Part shown: piece after piece, positions 4,913 to 10,402 of the stretch
Numbering within the stretch: position 1 is the first letter of the stretch
Layout: every line of letters begins with the position of its first letter
NCBI GenBank assembly: GCA_903904005.1
Contig: CAIVAR010000021.1
Coordinates: 1-64,000 of the forward strand
DNA length: 64,000 nt
Direction of reading: 5' to 3'
Source of the DNA: an uncultured Anaeromyxobacter sp.
GTDB lineage: Bacteria; Myxococcota; Myxococcia; Myxococcales; Anaeromyxobacteraceae
Program-made: the position numbers and the translations under genes
The notes under the pieces: generated by a model
The model's input: only the letters and a program-made list of their open reading frames with translations
The model's database searches: none
What the model was told of the DNA's origin: nothing

Positions 4913-4939
4913 GTAGCACGCCCTTTGGGTTCGTGCTAC
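4913..4939. promoter_or_regulatory. Inverted repeat upstream of nickel/cobalt uptake operon (possible NikR-type operator)
   Basis: GTAGCAC, 13 intervening bases, then GTGCTAC form a perfect 7-bp inverted repeat 40 bases before the first gene of the Nik/Cbi operon. The known NikR operators are two short half-sites separated by 14-16 bases, so this site is similar in design but one base shorter overall. The extended arms (GTAGCACG/CGTGCTAC) could also fold as an RNA hairpin. No T-tract follows, so it is not a standard terminator for the kinase gene. Confidence 0.45.
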
Positions 4940-4978: not shown

Positions 4979-5680
4979 GTGTCCTGGAAGAGGTTCGTCT
5001 CGCCGCTCGCCGTCGCCTGGCTCGCGCTCCCGCTGGCCGCCCGGGCCCATGACCTCTGGCTCGAGCCGCAGGGCGAGAACCTGGTACTCCGGTACGGCCA
5101 TCGGGGAGGCGACCTCCTCGACCTGGACGGGAGCCGGGTCCGGACCCTCCTCTGCCGGAAGGGTGGCGCGGGCGCGACGGACGTCCGTGGGGCCGCCCGG
5201 ACCGGGCCGAGGGAACTTCGCACCGCGTCGCGCTGCGACGTCGCGAGCGCCTTCCTCGACGGAGGCTTCTGGTCGCTCACGCCCGACGGCGAGAAGAACC
5301 TCCCCAGGAACCAGGTCCCCGATGCGGTGCGCTCCTGGCAGTCGCGCCAGTGGGCCAAGTGGGTCGACGTCCGGTCCGCCTCCGCCGGAGTTCCCCTGGG
5401 CGAGGAGTTCGAGATCGTCCCGGTGGGCGACCTCTCCCGCATCCGCCCGGGGGACAAGGCCACCTTCCGGGTCCTCTGGCAGGGCAGGCCGGTGACCGGG
5501 GCGGTGCTGGCCGTCGATCACCGGCCGCTCGGCGAGACCGACGCGGCCGGGGAGTGCCGCGTGAAGGTGCGCGCGGCCGACGTCGAATCGGTGACCGCGA
5601 CCCTGAAGCGCCCGCTCGGGACGCCCGAGGCCGACACCCTGGTTGCCGAGGCCAGCCTGACCTTCGAGGTCGGCCGGTGA
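4979..5680 (+). CDS. DUF4198 periplasmic protein, NikK-like component of nickel/cobalt ECF uptake
   Basis: From the GTG at 4979 (GGGGGA eight bases upstream) the protein has 233 residues: a signal peptide ending ...ARA, then HDLWLEP, the start typical of DUF4198 proteins. The mature N-terminal His is often a metal ligand in this family. DUF4198 proteins named NikK accompany NikL and the NikM/Q/O core in nickel/cobalt ECF transporters of deltaproteobacteria. Here the gene heads a tightly packed run of NikL-like, channel-like, CbiM, CbiQ and CbiO genes with 4-base overlaps, which supports a role in metal capture. The upstream in-frame ATG at 4925 would spoil the signal peptide and is rejected. 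Confidence 0.8.
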   Translation: MSWKRFVSPLAVAWLALPLAARAHDLWLEPQGENLVLRYGHRGGDLLDLDGSRVRTLLCRKGGAGATDVRGAARTGPRELRTASRCDVASAFLDGGFWSLTPDGEKNLPRNQVPDAVRSWQSRQWAKWVDVRSASAGVPLGEEFEIVPVGDLSRIRPGDKATFRVLWQGRPVTGAVLAVDHRPLGETDAAGECRVKVRAADVESVTATLKRPLGTPEADTLVAEASLTFEVGR

Positions 5681-6126
5681 GGCCGGCCCGCGCCCTCCTC
5701 GCGCTCGCGCTCCTCGCGGCGGCCCTCCCGGCCTCCGGCCACGAGGTGATGCACGAGGTTCGGCGCGGACGCGCGGTGGCCGTGCGCGCCTGGTTCCCCG
5801 GCGGCGAGAGCCTCGCCTACGTGCAGGCCGAGGTCTTCTCGCCCGCGGACGAAAAGGTCCCCCACTGGAAGGGGCGCACCGACCGGAACGGCTGGCTCGC
5901 CTTCGTCCCCGACGTCGGCGGGAAGTGGCGCGTCCGCATCGTCGACGCGACCGGGCACGGTCTCGACACGACGGTGGACGTCGCCGCCCCGGATCTCCCG
6001 GGGTCGGGTTCGAGCGACCCTCCGGCCGGCGCCACGTCGCTCGCCCTTCGCCCGGTCGCCGGGGTGGCCGTCATCGCGGCCGTGTTCGCGTTCCTCTATC
6101 TGCGCGGGCGGAGGCGGGCGCCATGA
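5677..6126 (+). CDS. NikL-like membrane-anchored periplasmic protein of nickel/cobalt uptake system
   Basis: 149 residues starting with a GTG that overlaps the previous stop. It has a signal peptide (LLALALLAAALPASG), a mature N-terminus beginning HEVMHEV, a small beta-rich domain and one C-terminal membrane helix (VAGVAVIAAVFAFLYL) followed by an RGRRR stop-transfer tail. This layout matches NikL, the small auxiliary subunit found between NikK and NikM in Nik(KL)MQO systems. The His residues at the mature N-terminus could bind Ni or Co; this is inference. It overlaps the next gene by four bases (ATGA), consistent with translational coupling. Confidence 0.75.
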   Translation: MRPARALLALALLAAALPASGHEVMHEVRRGRAVAVRAWFPGGESLAYVQAEVFSPADEKVPHWKGRTDRNGWLAFVPDVGGKWRVRIVDATGHGLDTTVDVAAPDLPGSGSSDPPAGATSLALRPVAGVAVIAAVFAFLYLRGRRRAP

Positions 6127-7133
6127 GCCGGCGACGCCCTGCGTTCCCGCGACTGGCAGCGGTCCTGCTCCTCTCCGTCGCGCCCCCCGCCCGCGCCCAC
6201 CACGGCAGCGCCGGCGTCGGGATGGCCGGACCGGAGGGCCCGGGCGCGGCCCTGGAGACCACCTCCCCCATCCCCATCCCCTGGAACAGCCTCTTCTTCA
6301 TGGTGAAGTCCGAGTACGTGCCCTTCCGGCAGTTCGACCTCGCCCAGCCGGAGAACAAGACCTTCTCCCTCTTCGACACCCTGGTGGCGGGCTACGGGAT
6401 CACGCCCTGGCTCACCGGGTACCTGTTCCTCCCCTACAACGTGAAGGCGCAGGACGGCGTCGGAACGAACGTCGGACTCGGCGACCCGGGGCTCTTCCTG
6501 AGCTTCGCCTTCAAGTACGACGAGGGCTTCCGGCTGGTGCCGGCGAAGGAGAGCCTCGACGAGCTGGAGGACTGGCACTTCTCGGTCTTCGGATACGTGA
6601 CCGTGCCCTTGGGGCCAACCGTGTCGGCGACCCACGCGCTCGATTGGTTCGCCCCCGACATGCAGACCGGCTTCGGCTCCCCGAGCTTCCAGCTCGGCGT
6701 CTCCGCGGCGAAGCAGCTCTCCCCCGACCTCACCTGGCTCGCCGACGCGAGCTACCAGTTCTTCCTCCCCCACACCTACCCCTTCACGCGTTACCAGTTC
6801 GGCGCCGAGTCGCGGATCAACACCGCCATCGCCTGGCGGGCCGTCGCAACCCCCGGCTTCCGGTTCGACGTCGCCGGCGAGGTGAACTTCCTGAACCTCC
6901 AGCGGGATCAGGAGCGGAACGGCGCAGCCGTCATGGAACCGCTGCAGGCCTCGGGCGGGACGATCCTCTACGCCGGACTGGGCGTGCGGGCCTACGTGGG
7001 ACGCTTCTCGGCGGCGCTCGCCGCCCGCACCTCCTTCGCCCGCTGGCTCAACGAGGGGGCGGAACAGCAGGGCTCGGAGGGACTGGAGTGGGTCCGGGTC
7101 GCGCTCACGCTCTCCTGCGTCCTGCCCATCTAG
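6123..7133 (+). CDS. Putative outer-membrane channel/transporter in the nickel/cobalt operon
   Basis: 336 residues with a signal peptide (LAAVLLLSVAPPARA) and a mature N-terminus HHGSAG. The rest is rich in alternating aromatic and polar beta strands (GYGITPWLTGYLFLPYNVK, VTVPLGPTVSATHALDWF) and ends without a charged tail, like outer-membrane beta-barrels of the 'transporter' (phenol-degradation MetA-like) group. It lies inside the operon, four bases into the NikL-like gene and two bases before cbiM. That position suggests it lets Ni/Co or a chelate cross the outer membrane. The function is inferred from context; the barrel assignment rests on composition only. Confidence 0.6.
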   Translation: MSRRRPAFPRLAAVLLLSVAPPARAHHGSAGVGMAGPEGPGAALETTSPIPIPWNSLFFMVKSEYVPFRQFDLAQPENKTFSLFDTLVAGYGITPWLTGYLFLPYNVKAQDGVGTNVGLGDPGLFLSFAFKYDEGFRLVPAKESLDELEDWHFSVFGYVTVPLGPTVSATHALDWFAPDMQTGFGSPSFQLGVSAAKQLSPDLTWLADASYQFFLPHTYPFTRYQFGAESRINTAIAWRAVATPGFRFDVAGEVNFLNLQRDQERNGAAVMEPLQASGGTILYAGLGVRAYVGRFSAALAARTSFARWLNEGAEQQGSEGLEWVRVALTLSCVLPI

Positions 7134-7135
7134 CC

Positions 7136-7768
7136 ATGCACGTCCCCGACGGCTTCCTCTCCCCGGTGATCACCCGTCCCGCCTGGGGCGCGGCCGCGCC
7201 GCTCTGGTACTGGGCCGCGCGGCGCAACTTCGGGGCATCGGCCACCGAGTCACTCCCGATCCTCGGTTCGCTCACCGCGCTCGCCTTCGTCGTGCAGCGC
7301 CTCATGATCCCGGTCCCCGGCGGGACCTCGGCGCACCTGACCGGCGTGGCCATCCTGGCGATCCTCTACAACCCCGGCGTCGCGTTCGTTTGCGAGTCGC
7401 TGGTGCTGCTCCTCCAGGCCCTCTTCTTCGGCGCGGGCGGCTTCACCGTCCTGGCCGTGAACGCGCTCGCCATGGGGCTCCTCGGGCCCGGCGCAGCCTG
7501 GCTCGCCTACCGGGCCCTGCGCGGACTCTCCGAACCGGGAGCCGCCTTCGCCGGGGCCTACGTCGGCATGCAGGTCGCGACCCTCGCGGTGGCGCTCGTG
7601 CTCGGGCTGCAGCACCGGCTCGACCCCGCCTACATGCCGGTGCCCTTCGAGGTGACGGTGGCGGCGACGATGCTGCCGAGCCTCACGGTCCTGGGGGTAG
7701 TCGAGGGGCTCTTCACGGTGGCCACGATGGCCCTCCTTCGCAGGGCGAGGCTCCTCCATGCCCGCTGA
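7136..7768 (+). CDS. cbiM: Energy-coupling factor metal-binding subunit CbiM/NikM
   Basis: 210 residues starting MHVPDGFL, the hallmark N-terminus of CbiM/NikM in which the N-terminal amine, His2 and a later His form the Co/Ni site. About six hydrophobic segments follow, and GGTSAHLTG matches the conserved His-containing loop of the family (residues about 62-70). This is the substrate-specific S component of the ECF importer that CbiQ and CbiO energise. The ATG at 7136 lies two bases after the preceding stop and the gene overlaps cbiQ by 11 bases. Whether the metal is nickel or cobalt cannot be read from this sequence alone; the NikKL partners slightly favour nickel. Confidence 0.93.
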   Translation: MHVPDGFLSPVITRPAWGAAAPLWYWAARRNFGASATESLPILGSLTALAFVVQRLMIPVPGGTSAHLTGVAILAILYNPGVAFVCESLVLLLQALFFGAGGFTVLAVNALAMGLLGPGAAWLAYRALRGLSEPGAAFAGAYVGMQVATLAVALVLGLQHRLDPAYMPVPFEVTVAATMLPSLTVLGVVEGLFTVATMALLRRARLLHAR

Positions 7769-8321
7769 GCCGCGCCGGAGCCAGATCCTCCTCGTGGCCT
7801 GGGCCGTCACGACCTTCGCGCTCTCCGCGTCGAAGGACCCGCGCGTCCTCCTCTCGGCCGCGCTGGCGGCGGCCCTGCTCTTCCGGCGGGGGGCGGCCCC
7901 CGTGGCCCGGAGGGTCGTCGTCGGGGTGCTCCCCTTCGCGCTGGGGCTCCCGCTCGCCTCGTGGGCCTGGCTGGCATGGCGGGAGGAGGCACCGCCGGTG
8001 GCGCCCTTCGCCACGCTGGCCCTGCGGGCCGCGCTCATCGCCTTCGTCACGCTGTCCGTCCTGCGCCGGGTCGACCTGCTCCGCGCGGCCGCCCCCTTCC
8101 CCACCCTCTCCCGGCTCCTCGTCCTCAGCCTGGCCCAGATCCACGCGCTGCGGCGCCTCGCCACCGAGTCGGCGCTCGGGCTGCGGAGCCGGCTGCCTCG
8201 GCGGCCGGGAACGCGGGACGCCGTGCGGAGTTCCGGCGCCGTCACCGTGGCCCTCCTCTCCCTCTCCGCCCGGAACGCCCGCGACGTCGGCGACGCGCTG
8301 CGCTCCCGGGGGTTCCATTGA
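7758..8321 (+). CDS. cbiQ: ECF transporter transmembrane subunit CbiQ (short form)
   Basis: 187 residues, hydrophobic, with membrane segments near 20-45, 55-75 and 90-105 and the cytoplasmic coupling region near the C-terminus (SARNARDVGDALRSRG), which corresponds to the second Ala-Arg-Gly coupling motif of T components. Typical CbiQ proteins have about 220-260 residues, so this copy is short. The N-terminal segment and the stretch before the first coupling motif look reduced. It overlaps cbiM upstream and cbiO downstream, so assignment is firm from position even though the sequence is divergent. Confidence 0.8.
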   Translation: MPAEPRRSQILLVAWAVTTFALSASKDPRVLLSAALAAALLFRRGAAPVARRVVVGVLPFALGLPLASWAWLAWREEAPPVAPFATLALRAALIAFVTLSVLRRVDLLRAAAPFPTLSRLLVLSLAQIHALRRLATESALGLRSRLPRRPGTRDAVRSSGAVTVALLSLSARNARDVGDALRSRGFH

Positions 8322-9100
8322 CCTTCGCGCTTCGCGACGTCTCGCTCGAGGTGGAGGGGCGCCCGGTGCTGCGCGATCTCTCCTTCTCGATCGCCGAGCG
8401 GGAGCGGGTGGTGGTGCTCGGGGTGAACGGCTGCGGCAAGACCACCCTGCTCCGGATCCTCGACGGCCTCGCCTTCCCGACCCGGGGCGAGGTGCGCCAC
8501 TGCGGTGCGCCGCTCGATGCCCGCGCGCTCGCGGACCCGGCGTTCCGCCGCCGCTTCCGTGGCGAGGTGGCCTTCCTGTTCCAGAACGTGGACGCGATGC
8601 TCTTCAACCCCACGGTCGCCGACGAGATCGCCTTCGGCCCCCGGCAGCTCGGGCTCGACGGCGTGGACGACCGGGTGGCCCGCTGGGCCGATGCGCTGGG
8701 CGTCACGCCCCTGCTCCCCCGCCCCCCCTTCGAGCTCTCCGGGGGCGAGAAGAAGCGGGTCGCCCTGGCCGCGCTGCTCGCCAGCGACCCGCGCGTCCTG
8801 CTCCTCGACGAGGCCACCGCCAACCTCGACCCGGCCTGGGCCGGGAAGCTCGTGGACCTGCTGGCCGGGCGGCCGGACCTGACCGTGGTGAGCGCCACCC
8901 ACAACCTGTCGGTCGCCGAGGAGCTGGGCGCCCGGGCGCTGCTCCTCGCCCCTGGCGGGGCGGGGCTCCTCTTCGACGGCCCCACCGCCGGGCTGCTCCG
9001 GGACCCCTTGCTCCTCGTCCGGAGCGGCCTCGCCCACCGGCACGCCCACACCCACGACGGAACCGGCCACGCACACTTCCACGTCCACGACGTGGAGTGA
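8318..9100 (+). CDS. cbiO: ECF transporter ATPase subunit CbiO with histidine-rich C-terminal tail
   Basis: 260 residues from a TTG that overlaps the cbiQ stop. Walker A GVNGCGKTT at 35-43, signature ELSGGEKKR and Walker B RVLLLDEAT are all intact, so it should hydrolyse ATP to drive CbiMQ. The Q-loop reads FLFQNVDAMLF, usual for ECF ATPases. The last 21 residues are unusual: seven His alternate with Ala, Thr and Asp (HRHAHTH and HAHFHVH). Such tails bind Ni, Co or Zn in metal chaperones and could make the ATPase a metal sink or sensor. A weak hairpin (CCGAGGG/CCCTCGG, about 9171-9201) lies after the stop. Confidence 0.93.
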   Translation: MTFALRDVSLEVEGRPVLRDLSFSIAERERVVVLGVNGCGKTTLLRILDGLAFPTRGEVRHCGAPLDARALADPAFRRRFRGEVAFLFQNVDAMLFNPTVADEIAFGPRQLGLDGVDDRVARWADALGVTPLLPRPPFELSGGEKKRVALAALLASDPRVLLLDEATANLDPAWAGKLVDLLAGRPDLTVVSATHNLSVAEELGARALLLAPGGAGLLFDGPTAGLLRDPLLLVRSGLAHRHAHTHDGTGHAHFHVHDVE

Positions 9101-9247: not shown

Positions 9248-10402
9248 GTGAATCTCACCGCATTGGTCCTCGCCGCCGCGTTGGTCGCGGGCAAGGACCC
9301 CGTGTACGTCGGACTGGACCTCGAGTTCGGCCACCAGACCAGCACCTCGGCCGAGGCCGTCCAGCGCGGGGTCGAGCTTGCCATCGCAGAGATCAACGCC
9401 GCCGGGGGCGTCCTCGGAGGGAGACCGCTCGAGGCGGTGGTGCTCCCCAACCGCGCGGTGCCGGCGCGCGGGGTCGAGAACATCCGCACCTTCGCCGCCC
9501 GCAAGGACGCGGTCGCCGTGATGTGCGGGAAGTTCAGCCCGGTGGTGCTGGAGGAGATCCCGGTCCTCCACGAGCTGGAGATGCCGCTGCTCGACCCCTG
9601 GGCGGCCGCCGACGGGATCATCGACAACGGCAGGCACCCCAGCTACGTCTTCCGCCTGTCGCTCCGCGACTCCTGGGCGATCCGCACCATGCTCGAGTAC
9701 GCGGCCTCCCGGGGCCTGGAGCGGGTCGCGCTCCTCCTGCCCAACACCGGCTGGGGGCGCAGCAACGCGGCCGCCGCCGAGACCTACCTCAAGTCCCACC
9801 CCACGCCGCGGATCGTCGCCACCCGCTGGTTCAACTGGGGCGTCGAGTCGCTCGTCGAGGACTACGAGGCCTTCCGCACCGCCGGAGCCCAGGCGGTGGT
9901 GTTCGTCACCAACGAGGGGCCGGGCGCGGTGCTGGTCCGGGAGGTGGCCGCGATGGCTCCCGAGAAGCGGATGCCCATCATCGCCCACCACGGCGTCGCC
10001 GGCGGCGACCTCGTCACGCTCTCGGGGCCTGCGCTCGGCAAGGTCGATCTCACGGCGGTCCAGTTCTTCACCTTCGTGGGCAACACCCGCCCCCAGGCGA
10101 AGGCCCTGCTCGCCGCCGCCGAGAAGCGCTACGGAGTTCAGGACGCCGGGCACGTGCTCTCCGCCGGCGGCCTCGCCGCGGCCCACGACCTCACCCACCT
10201 GCTCGCACTGGCGGTGCAGAAGGCCGGGAGCACCGACCGGAAGGCCATCCGGAAGGCGCTCGAGGAGTTGCGCGACTACGACGGCGCCGTGAAGCAACTC
10301 CCCCGCCCGTTCACCCCCGACCGGCACGAGGCGCTCGCCCAGGAAGACCTGTTCATGGCCCGGTTCACCGCCGAGGGCGCGCTGGTCCGCATCACCCCGT
10401 GA
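9248..10402 (+). CDS. ABC-type substrate-binding protein, branched-chain amino acid/urea type (Peripla_BP_6)
   Basis: 384 residues from a GTG preceded by AGGAGA. A very short hydrophobic N-terminus (LTALVLAAALVAG) serves as signal, then the ligand-binding lobes with family blocks EINAAGGVLGGRPLE and YAASRGLERVALLLPN. The family binds amino acids, urea or amides for ABC import. No permease or ATPase gene is adjacent; instead the stop overlaps the start of a Cache histidine kinase. It therefore probably works as a periplasmic ligand-presenting partner of the kinase, as known for other orphan binding proteins; this is inference. Confidence 0.85.
   Translation: MNLTALVLAAALVAGKDPVYVGLDLEFGHQTSTSAEAVQRGVELAIAEINAAGGVLGGRPLEAVVLPNRAVPARGVENIRTFAARKDAVAVMCGKFSPVVLEEIPVLHELEMPLLDPWAAADGIIDNGRHPSYVFRLSLRDSWAIRTMLEYAASRGLERVALLLPNTGWGRSNAAAAETYLKSHPTPRIVATRWFNWGVESLVEDYEAFRTAGAQAVVFVTNEGPGAVLVREVAAMAPEKRMPIIAHHGVAGGDLVTLSGPALGKVDLTAVQFFTFVGNTRPQAKALLAAAEKRYGVQDAGHVLSAGGLAAAHDLTHLLALAVQKAGSTDRKAIRKALEELRDYDGAVKQLPRPFTPDRHEALAQEDLFMARFTAEGALVRITP

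Follow-up and report, generated by a model that had tools for sequence, protein, structure and literature searches.

A nickel transporter operon of an uncultured Anaeromyxobacter that includes a predicted outer-membrane barrel

The window analysed here is a 64,000-nucleotide stretch of an uncultured Anaeromyxobacter sp., contig C21 of a 4.56 Mb draft genome. Its positions 4979-9100 are filled by six genes on the + strand, nikK-nikL-barrel-cbiM-cbiQ-cbiO, each abutting or overlapping the next, in which the components of a nickel energy-coupling factor (ECF) transporter are accompanied by a gene for a 336-residue protein. This protein, which we call the HHG barrel, models as a 12-stranded outer-membrane barrel with a COG4313-like fold, and its link to nickel genes is strong. 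On the gene order, the barrel model, the linkage across phyla, the NikR-like sites and the conservation of the HHG motif, we favour with moderate confidence a NikR-regulated operon for the uptake of nickel (possibly cobalt), in which the barrel would be the outer-membrane nickel channel and its N-terminus would plug the lumen.

Structure of the barrel and its link to nickel genes

The AlphaFold2 model of the window protein, built from an alignment with 27 relatives, had 12 strands, a predicted local distance difference test score (pLDDT) of 84.3 and a predicted template modelling score of 0.81. A second model, of a Nitrospinota member (L024), also had 12 strands and agreed with the first (L denotes barrel or nickel loci, C contigs of the own genome and G genomes of relatives). 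The nearest solved fold to both was the COG4313 channel 4rl8, with Z = 26.4 and a root mean square deviation of 2.3 over 251 residues for the window protein, and with Z = 24.9 and 2.5 over 248 residues for L024. A reading of the sequence alone (the sequence-only reading) had called the product of 6123-7133 barrel-like, which both models bear out. The strands are amphipathic and the lumen-facing positions are conserved more than the lipid-facing ones in 12 of the 13 strand pieces, a pattern suggesting that the lumen is used. PF13557 was the sole Pfam match of the family at E 0.01, reaching 12 of the 28 members at E ≤0.01 (best 8e-9); on the window copy it stayed under the gathering threshold (E = 0.002, 18.6 bits against 22), and a PF13557 search of the own genome gave no match above the cut-off. 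No PDB sequence matched the barrel profile at E 1, and a plasmid search with the barrel gave no match. By its models, the barrel is a protein that folds like the COG4313 channel, and we do not file it as a plain member of PF13557.

The predicted mature protein begins with the HHG motif. The residue before it is alanine in all 28 aligned barrels, and residue -3 is A, V, G, I or T. Seven residues of the N-terminal region are invariant in the alignment (H26, H27, G28, G39, G41, E45 and T46), among which H26 and H27 are the sole invariant histidines of the protein. From residue 30 onward the segment aligns onto 4rl8 from its residue 1. The other invariant motif, QQGSEGLE, was one of the two patterns that found the 27 relatives, so that its invariance is partly imposed.

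These relatives were retrieved by scanning 84,980 genomes for the barrel profile, and the 27 loci belong to Myxococcota, Nitrospirota, Nitrospinota, Planctomycetota, Vulcanimicrobiota and other phyla. Since the scan used the barrel sequence alone, the neighbouring genes are a fair test of the nickel link. Neighbours were called with local profiles made from the window proteins, and matches on the - strand or with E >1e-10 were dropped. Of the 27 loci, 23 had at least one of nikK, nikL, cbiM and nikR no more than 3 kb away on the strand of the barrel, and seven had nikR. Judging by sizes and identities, L013, L014 and L015 (the last from Anaeromyxobacter sp. PSR-1, a culturable carrier) probably represent genomes G002, G012 and G017, so that these are not independent. 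Two main gene orders were seen, that of the window and, in planctomycetes, nikR-cbiM-(nikL-like)-cbiQ-cbiO-barrel. At L033 the barrel adjoins HupE/UreJ-2, and at L036 a NicO nickel transporter is encoded some 2 kb further along, suggesting that the barrel goes with nickel and not with one type of pump.

A control was taken from 30 loci among the matches listed in a search of 195 Myxococcota genomes. All six HHG barrels in this set had nikK and nikL in their 1.5 kb flank, whereas none of the 24 distant COG4313-like barrels had any of six nickel genes in theirs. The recurrence at 23 of 27 loci against 0 of 24 controls rules out a chance neighbour or contamination. The same search had suggested that 57 of the 195 genomes carry the barrel, a count that we rejected: strong matches (E <1e-80) were confined to G000, G002, G012, G017, G165 and G166, and the rest were distant COG4313-like barrels, fragments or remnants. 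Conservation of the gene order, which the sequence-only reading had named as a check, was found on the own contig C171 and in other phyla.

The palindrome in front of nikK resembles a NikR signal of the "reversed" kind, GTAACAC-N13/14-GTGTTAC, which PMC545781 reports from a delta-proteobacterium. With at most one mismatch, NikR-like sites were present in 13 of the 27 loci, and the rate in shuffled sequence was 0.028 per kb. Their density was 0.82/kb close to where nickel genes or barrels start (18 in 21.9 kb) against 0.042/kb elsewhere (11 in 260 kb). In these figures a palindrome may be counted once per strand, and of the 11 sites "elsewhere" several fall just beyond the zones, at true operon starts. 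Seven of the nine planctomycete loci (L020, L022, L023, L025, L026, L027, L029, L031 and L034), those of anammox bacteria included, had a site with ≤2 mismatches in the 200 nt ahead of the chosen barrel start, that of the anammox locus L031 being at 5873-5899; at L034 the site lies about 400 nt before the barrel, and at L023 none with ≤2 mismatches was found before it. Such sites right before the planctomycete barrel genes directly support, albeit by computation alone, a place for the barrel in the NikR regulon.

Features of the operon and copies of the barrel

The operon and barrel coordinates given by the sequence-only reading agree with the open reading frames, starts and stops (Table 1). 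Its gene set also holds, NikK-like, NikL-like, CbiM and CbiO by profile and CbiQ by position and homologs. The window copy of CbiQ had no match in Pfam and NCBIfam profile searches; the genes at the CbiQ position in L019, L020 and L024 match PF02361. Spacing is tight throughout, with cbiM starting 2 nt past the barrel stop and the TTG start of cbiO overlapping the stop of cbiQ. The genome encodes two NiFe-hydrogenase large subunits, which implies a need for nickel. Just downstream of cbiO, the gene at 9248-10402 (+) encodes a Peripla_BP_6 periplasmic binding protein and may or may not belong to the operon.

Table 1. Features of the nickel operon in the window
Feature	Position	Strand	Details
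NikR-like operator	4913-4939		exact palindrome GTAGCAC-N13-GTGCTAC, 40 nt before nikK
nikK-like, exported DUF4198 protein	4979-5680	+	PF10670, 51.2 bits against a cut-off of 34, E 2e-13; GTG start, TGA stop
nikK-like, predicted mature start			HDLWLEP
nikL-like, exported, C-terminal membrane span	5677-6126	+	NCBIfam NF058648, E 2e-8, 34 bits, below the cut-off of 100; GTG start; overlaps nikK by GTGA
nikL-like, predicted mature start			HEVMHE
Predicted outer-membrane barrel (HHG barrel), 336 aa	6123-7133	+	ATG start; 4-nt overlap with nikL
Predicted signal peptide of barrel, residues 1-25	6123-6197	+	ends A-R-A; by eye
N-terminal segment before strand 1, residues 26-55, candidate lumen plug	6198-6287	+	HHG...GPEGPGAALETTSP; alignment, fold match
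QQGSEGLE, residues 315-322, loop between strands 11 and 12	7065-7088	+	extracellular by topology rule; invariant in 28
cbiM/nikM, substrate-binding membrane subunit	7136-7768	+	PF01891, E 1e-47; ATG start; begins MHVPDG
cbiQ, transmembrane subunit	7758-8321	+	ATG start; named from position and matching open reading frames at the same place in L014-L018
cbiO, ATPase subunit, His-rich C-terminus	8318-9100	+	PF00005 (ABC_tran), E 4e-28; TIGR01166 cbiO, E 2e-39

The own genome holds three copies of the barrel, on C21, C171 and C6, which are 82-83% identical and therefore not duplicates of the assembly. They form a clade of their own beside the copy of an Anaeromyxobacter metagenome-assembled genome (clade support 92/71). 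C171 repeats the full operon, with nikR next to cbiO (NikR equivalog NF003381, E 2e-60), and its NikR-like site has no mismatches. On C6, a nikK-nikL-barrel unit (L005:6291-8484) has no cbiMQO behind it, and the site before it is degenerate, with two mismatches (L005 8488-8514).

Within the bacterial family, we searched 60 relatives including the own genome and found NikL in 18 of them, at 20 loci. The sequence-only reading had held that absence of the gene from other copies of the operon would refute its proposal, and this is borne out in part: a full-length gene is present at six of the 20 loci, three of them in the own genome, and absent at the other 14. The barrel occurred at six of the eight NikL loci with nikK and at none of the 12 without it (Fisher test, P = 7e-4, with kinship ignored and three rows from one genome); nikK is present at two of the 14 loci that lack the barrel. 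Two of these 14 loci keep a remnant between nikL and cbiM, of 57 residues in G021 (L043:1950-2123) and 70 in G013 (L049:1953-2165). Both remnants retain the signal peptide, HHG and a QQGSEGLE-like last strand, and both have lost the interior in frame, at different break points. They could be mere relics whose frame is preserved through coupling to cbiM, or working mini-proteins. In the own contig C110 (L007:6718-6903) and in G003 (L011:1059-1244), a 62-residue stretch is 55% identical to barrel residues 227-289; none of the nickel genes is nearby, and the stretch looks like a decayed fragment.

Two further proteins were seen at loci among the 27. One is an exported family of about 185 residues, starting with HEGHDHSHD or similar, encoded directly after the barrel in eight of the 27 loci (L022, L023, L025, L027, L029, L030, L031 and L034), which had no Pfam match save a weak one to DUF3347 in L030. 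The other is a different, second barrel-like protein of Scalindua (L027:7424-8443, - strand), which starts with CDICGIGG, has a weak BBP2 match and is encoded beside cobalt/nickel genes.

Proposed route of nickel and alternative readings

The barrel is probably the outer door for nickel, a role suggested by its gene neighbourhood. Ni(II) or a small nickel complex would enter the periplasm through the 12-stranded barrel and would be taken up there by the exported NikK and NikL proteins, which carry a histidine at their predicted mature N-termini. These would pass the metal to the substrate subunit CbiM, and CbiQ-CbiO would power its import into the cytoplasm. Passage across the outer membrane would be driven by mass action, as binding by NikK/NikL and the use of ATP by CbiMQO would keep free periplasmic nickel low. 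Like the N-terminus of the solved COG4313 channel, that of the barrel (HHG...GPG-P-ET-SP) probably enters the lumen from the periplasm, and its two invariant histidines could make it a metal-sensing or metal-passing plug. Here we infer the substrate, the direction of transport, the position of the plug, the binding of metal and the hand-over.

NikM binds nickel through its N-terminal amine and His2. In the matching proteins, the signal-like stretch ends in A, G or S followed by histidine in 15 of 15 NikK and 11 of 11 NikL, a pattern that was looked for as histidine alone and then verified by eye. In a rough control, 13 of 97 proteins had a histidine after the signal peptide, which is above expectation. 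Given the make-up of these positives (six from one exported His-rich family adjoining the barrel, two NikL-like, three NicO and two apparently spurious), the control offers no clean background. CbiM and NikK are fused in one reading frame at L019:4215-5567 and L032:3538-4941, where a free NikK N-terminus would need cleavage, and this speaks against a strict need for a free N-terminus. A bolder version of the proposal, which we put forward tentatively and would not bet on, is that the barrels are a family of nickel channels free of TonB receptors and gated by their own His-tipped plug. Nickel would step from the outside to the cytoplasm along a chain of free N-terminal histidines (HHG in the barrel, HD in NikK, HE in NikL, MH in CbiM), and three kinds of nickel permease in the inner membrane would share the barrel as their outer door.

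Several observations weigh against the barrel as an outer-membrane nickel channel. The N-terminal segment is modelled at low confidence (residues 18-41, pLDDT <50). Four of the 27 loci (L025, L034, L037 and L039) have no nickel gene within 3 kb, and the 14 barrel-less NikL loci in the family suggest that the barrel is accessory and not required by the import system. The CbiM encoded at the Scalindua loci L023 and L027 is of the MHITEG type and may be cobalt-specific. Genes of the TonB system occur near some barrels: a divergent TonB_C gene stands in front of the own C6 copy (L005 8726-9481, PF03544, E 5e-17), ExbB-ExbD-TonB (L023:3817-6957) or ExbD-TonB (L027:2-2490) directly precedes the barrel in Scalindua, and MotA/ExbB and DUF2149 precede it in L025. 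Finally, Pput2725, a relative with a solved structure, is a poor conductor of ions, and its presumed substrates are hydrophobic molecules (PMC4493636).

This last point leads to the best-placed of the alternatives, in which the barrel carries a nickel chelate (with a nickelophore or an organic ligand) and not the bare ion. COG4313 and FapF folds serve organic solutes or peptides (PMC4493636), and invariant residues in loops placed outside by the topology rule (Q181, D262, Q315, Q316, S318, E319 and E322) could bind such a chelate. However, no ligand-synthesis genes were seen in the operon, although no search was aimed at them, and bare divalent ions would need no receptor; we regard a chelate as unlikely.

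TonB-dependent receptor barrels have 22 strands, and the family had no match to the Plug domain (PF07715), so that the 12 strands, the missing Plug and the length of 336 residues rule out such a receptor. Plug matches in the own genome (two over the cut-off, two below) are on other contigs. The sequence-only reading had proposed a path into the cell without a TonB receptor, which stands for the protein itself but not for its surroundings, where TonB/Exb genes adjoin the barrels of C6 and of the two Scalindua loci. These genes, with the MotA/ExbB-DUF2149 pair of L025, fit a small barrel without plug domain that is energised by TonB, which would touch the N-terminal segment (the invariant ET in G-P-ET-SP) and open the channel. 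Against this, TonB_C adjoins the barrel in L023 and L027 only, two of the 27 loci. In searches of draft barrel genomes, TonB_C was not found in L020 and L031 and gave only sub-cut-off matches in L026 and L029, so that the barrel can probably do without TonB. We consider an energised barrel improbable and the barrel probably independent of TonB, although TonB may assist it in some lineages, as Scalindua and the C6 copy hint.

Slightly more doubtful still is a barrel that serves as an outer-membrane anchor or dock for NikK/NikL, with nickel entering via general porins. The co-occurrence of nikK and the barrel, the nikKL-barrel unit of C6 without cbiMQO, and the remnants, which lose strands and retain both termini, would all suit a dock, but a dock does not account for amphipathic strands with conserved polar positions facing the lumen. 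Export of excess nickel or of a metal-binding product is very improbable: the exporter FapF was the second-ranked fold match to the window model (Z = 24.4) and L035, L036 and L038 are ambiguous on direction because NicO members include exporters, but the barrel is linked to importers of ECF, HupE/UreJ and NicO forms and to sites of NikR, a repressor of importers at high nickel.

Comparison with known systems

A few TonB-dependent receptors are known to bring nickel across the outer membrane, but for most nickel-using bacteria the route is open. In the literature searched, which left subscription journals mostly outside, nickel-specific outer-membrane channels were described only as TonB-dependent receptors, and no outer-membrane barrel in a nickel ECF operon was described. 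A channel that is linked to NikR, works without a receptor and occurs in several phyla, anammox planctomycetes included, would give a testable gene, and the shared N-terminal histidine is a simple, mutable prediction. The outer-membrane route of nickel is also open in cable bacteria (PMC11247825).

With the NikKLMQO/NikMQO nickel ECF transporters, the operon shares NikK, NikL, CbiM, CbiQ, CbiO and the NikR-like site. It differs by the extra outer-membrane barrel inside it, a gene that does not appear in the available parts of PMC545781 and PMC11247825. The TonB-dependent nickel receptors FrpB4, CntO and NikH, of which FrpB4 is under NikR control (PMC5140060), have the same job that we propose for the HHG barrel, the passage of nickel across the outer membrane. 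Unlike them, the HHG barrel has no Plug domain match, 12 strands and 336 residues. MnoP, RopAe and PcoB are metal barrels free of TonB. PcoB is likewise a small barrel in a metal operon proposed to admit a divalent metal (PMC9210255), but the metal is copper and homology with the HHG barrel is not established.

The closest comparison is with the COG4313/PF13557 channels (Pput2725, TcpY and SphA), which have the same 12-stranded fold and an N-terminal segment before strand 1. Known COG4313 members are linked to hydrophobic molecules (PMC4493636), whereas the HHG barrels are linked to nickel operons; if the proposed role is true, nickel would be the first metal substrate for this fold. The HHG mature N-terminus, the nickel operons and the NikR-like sites set the HHG barrel apart from these channels.

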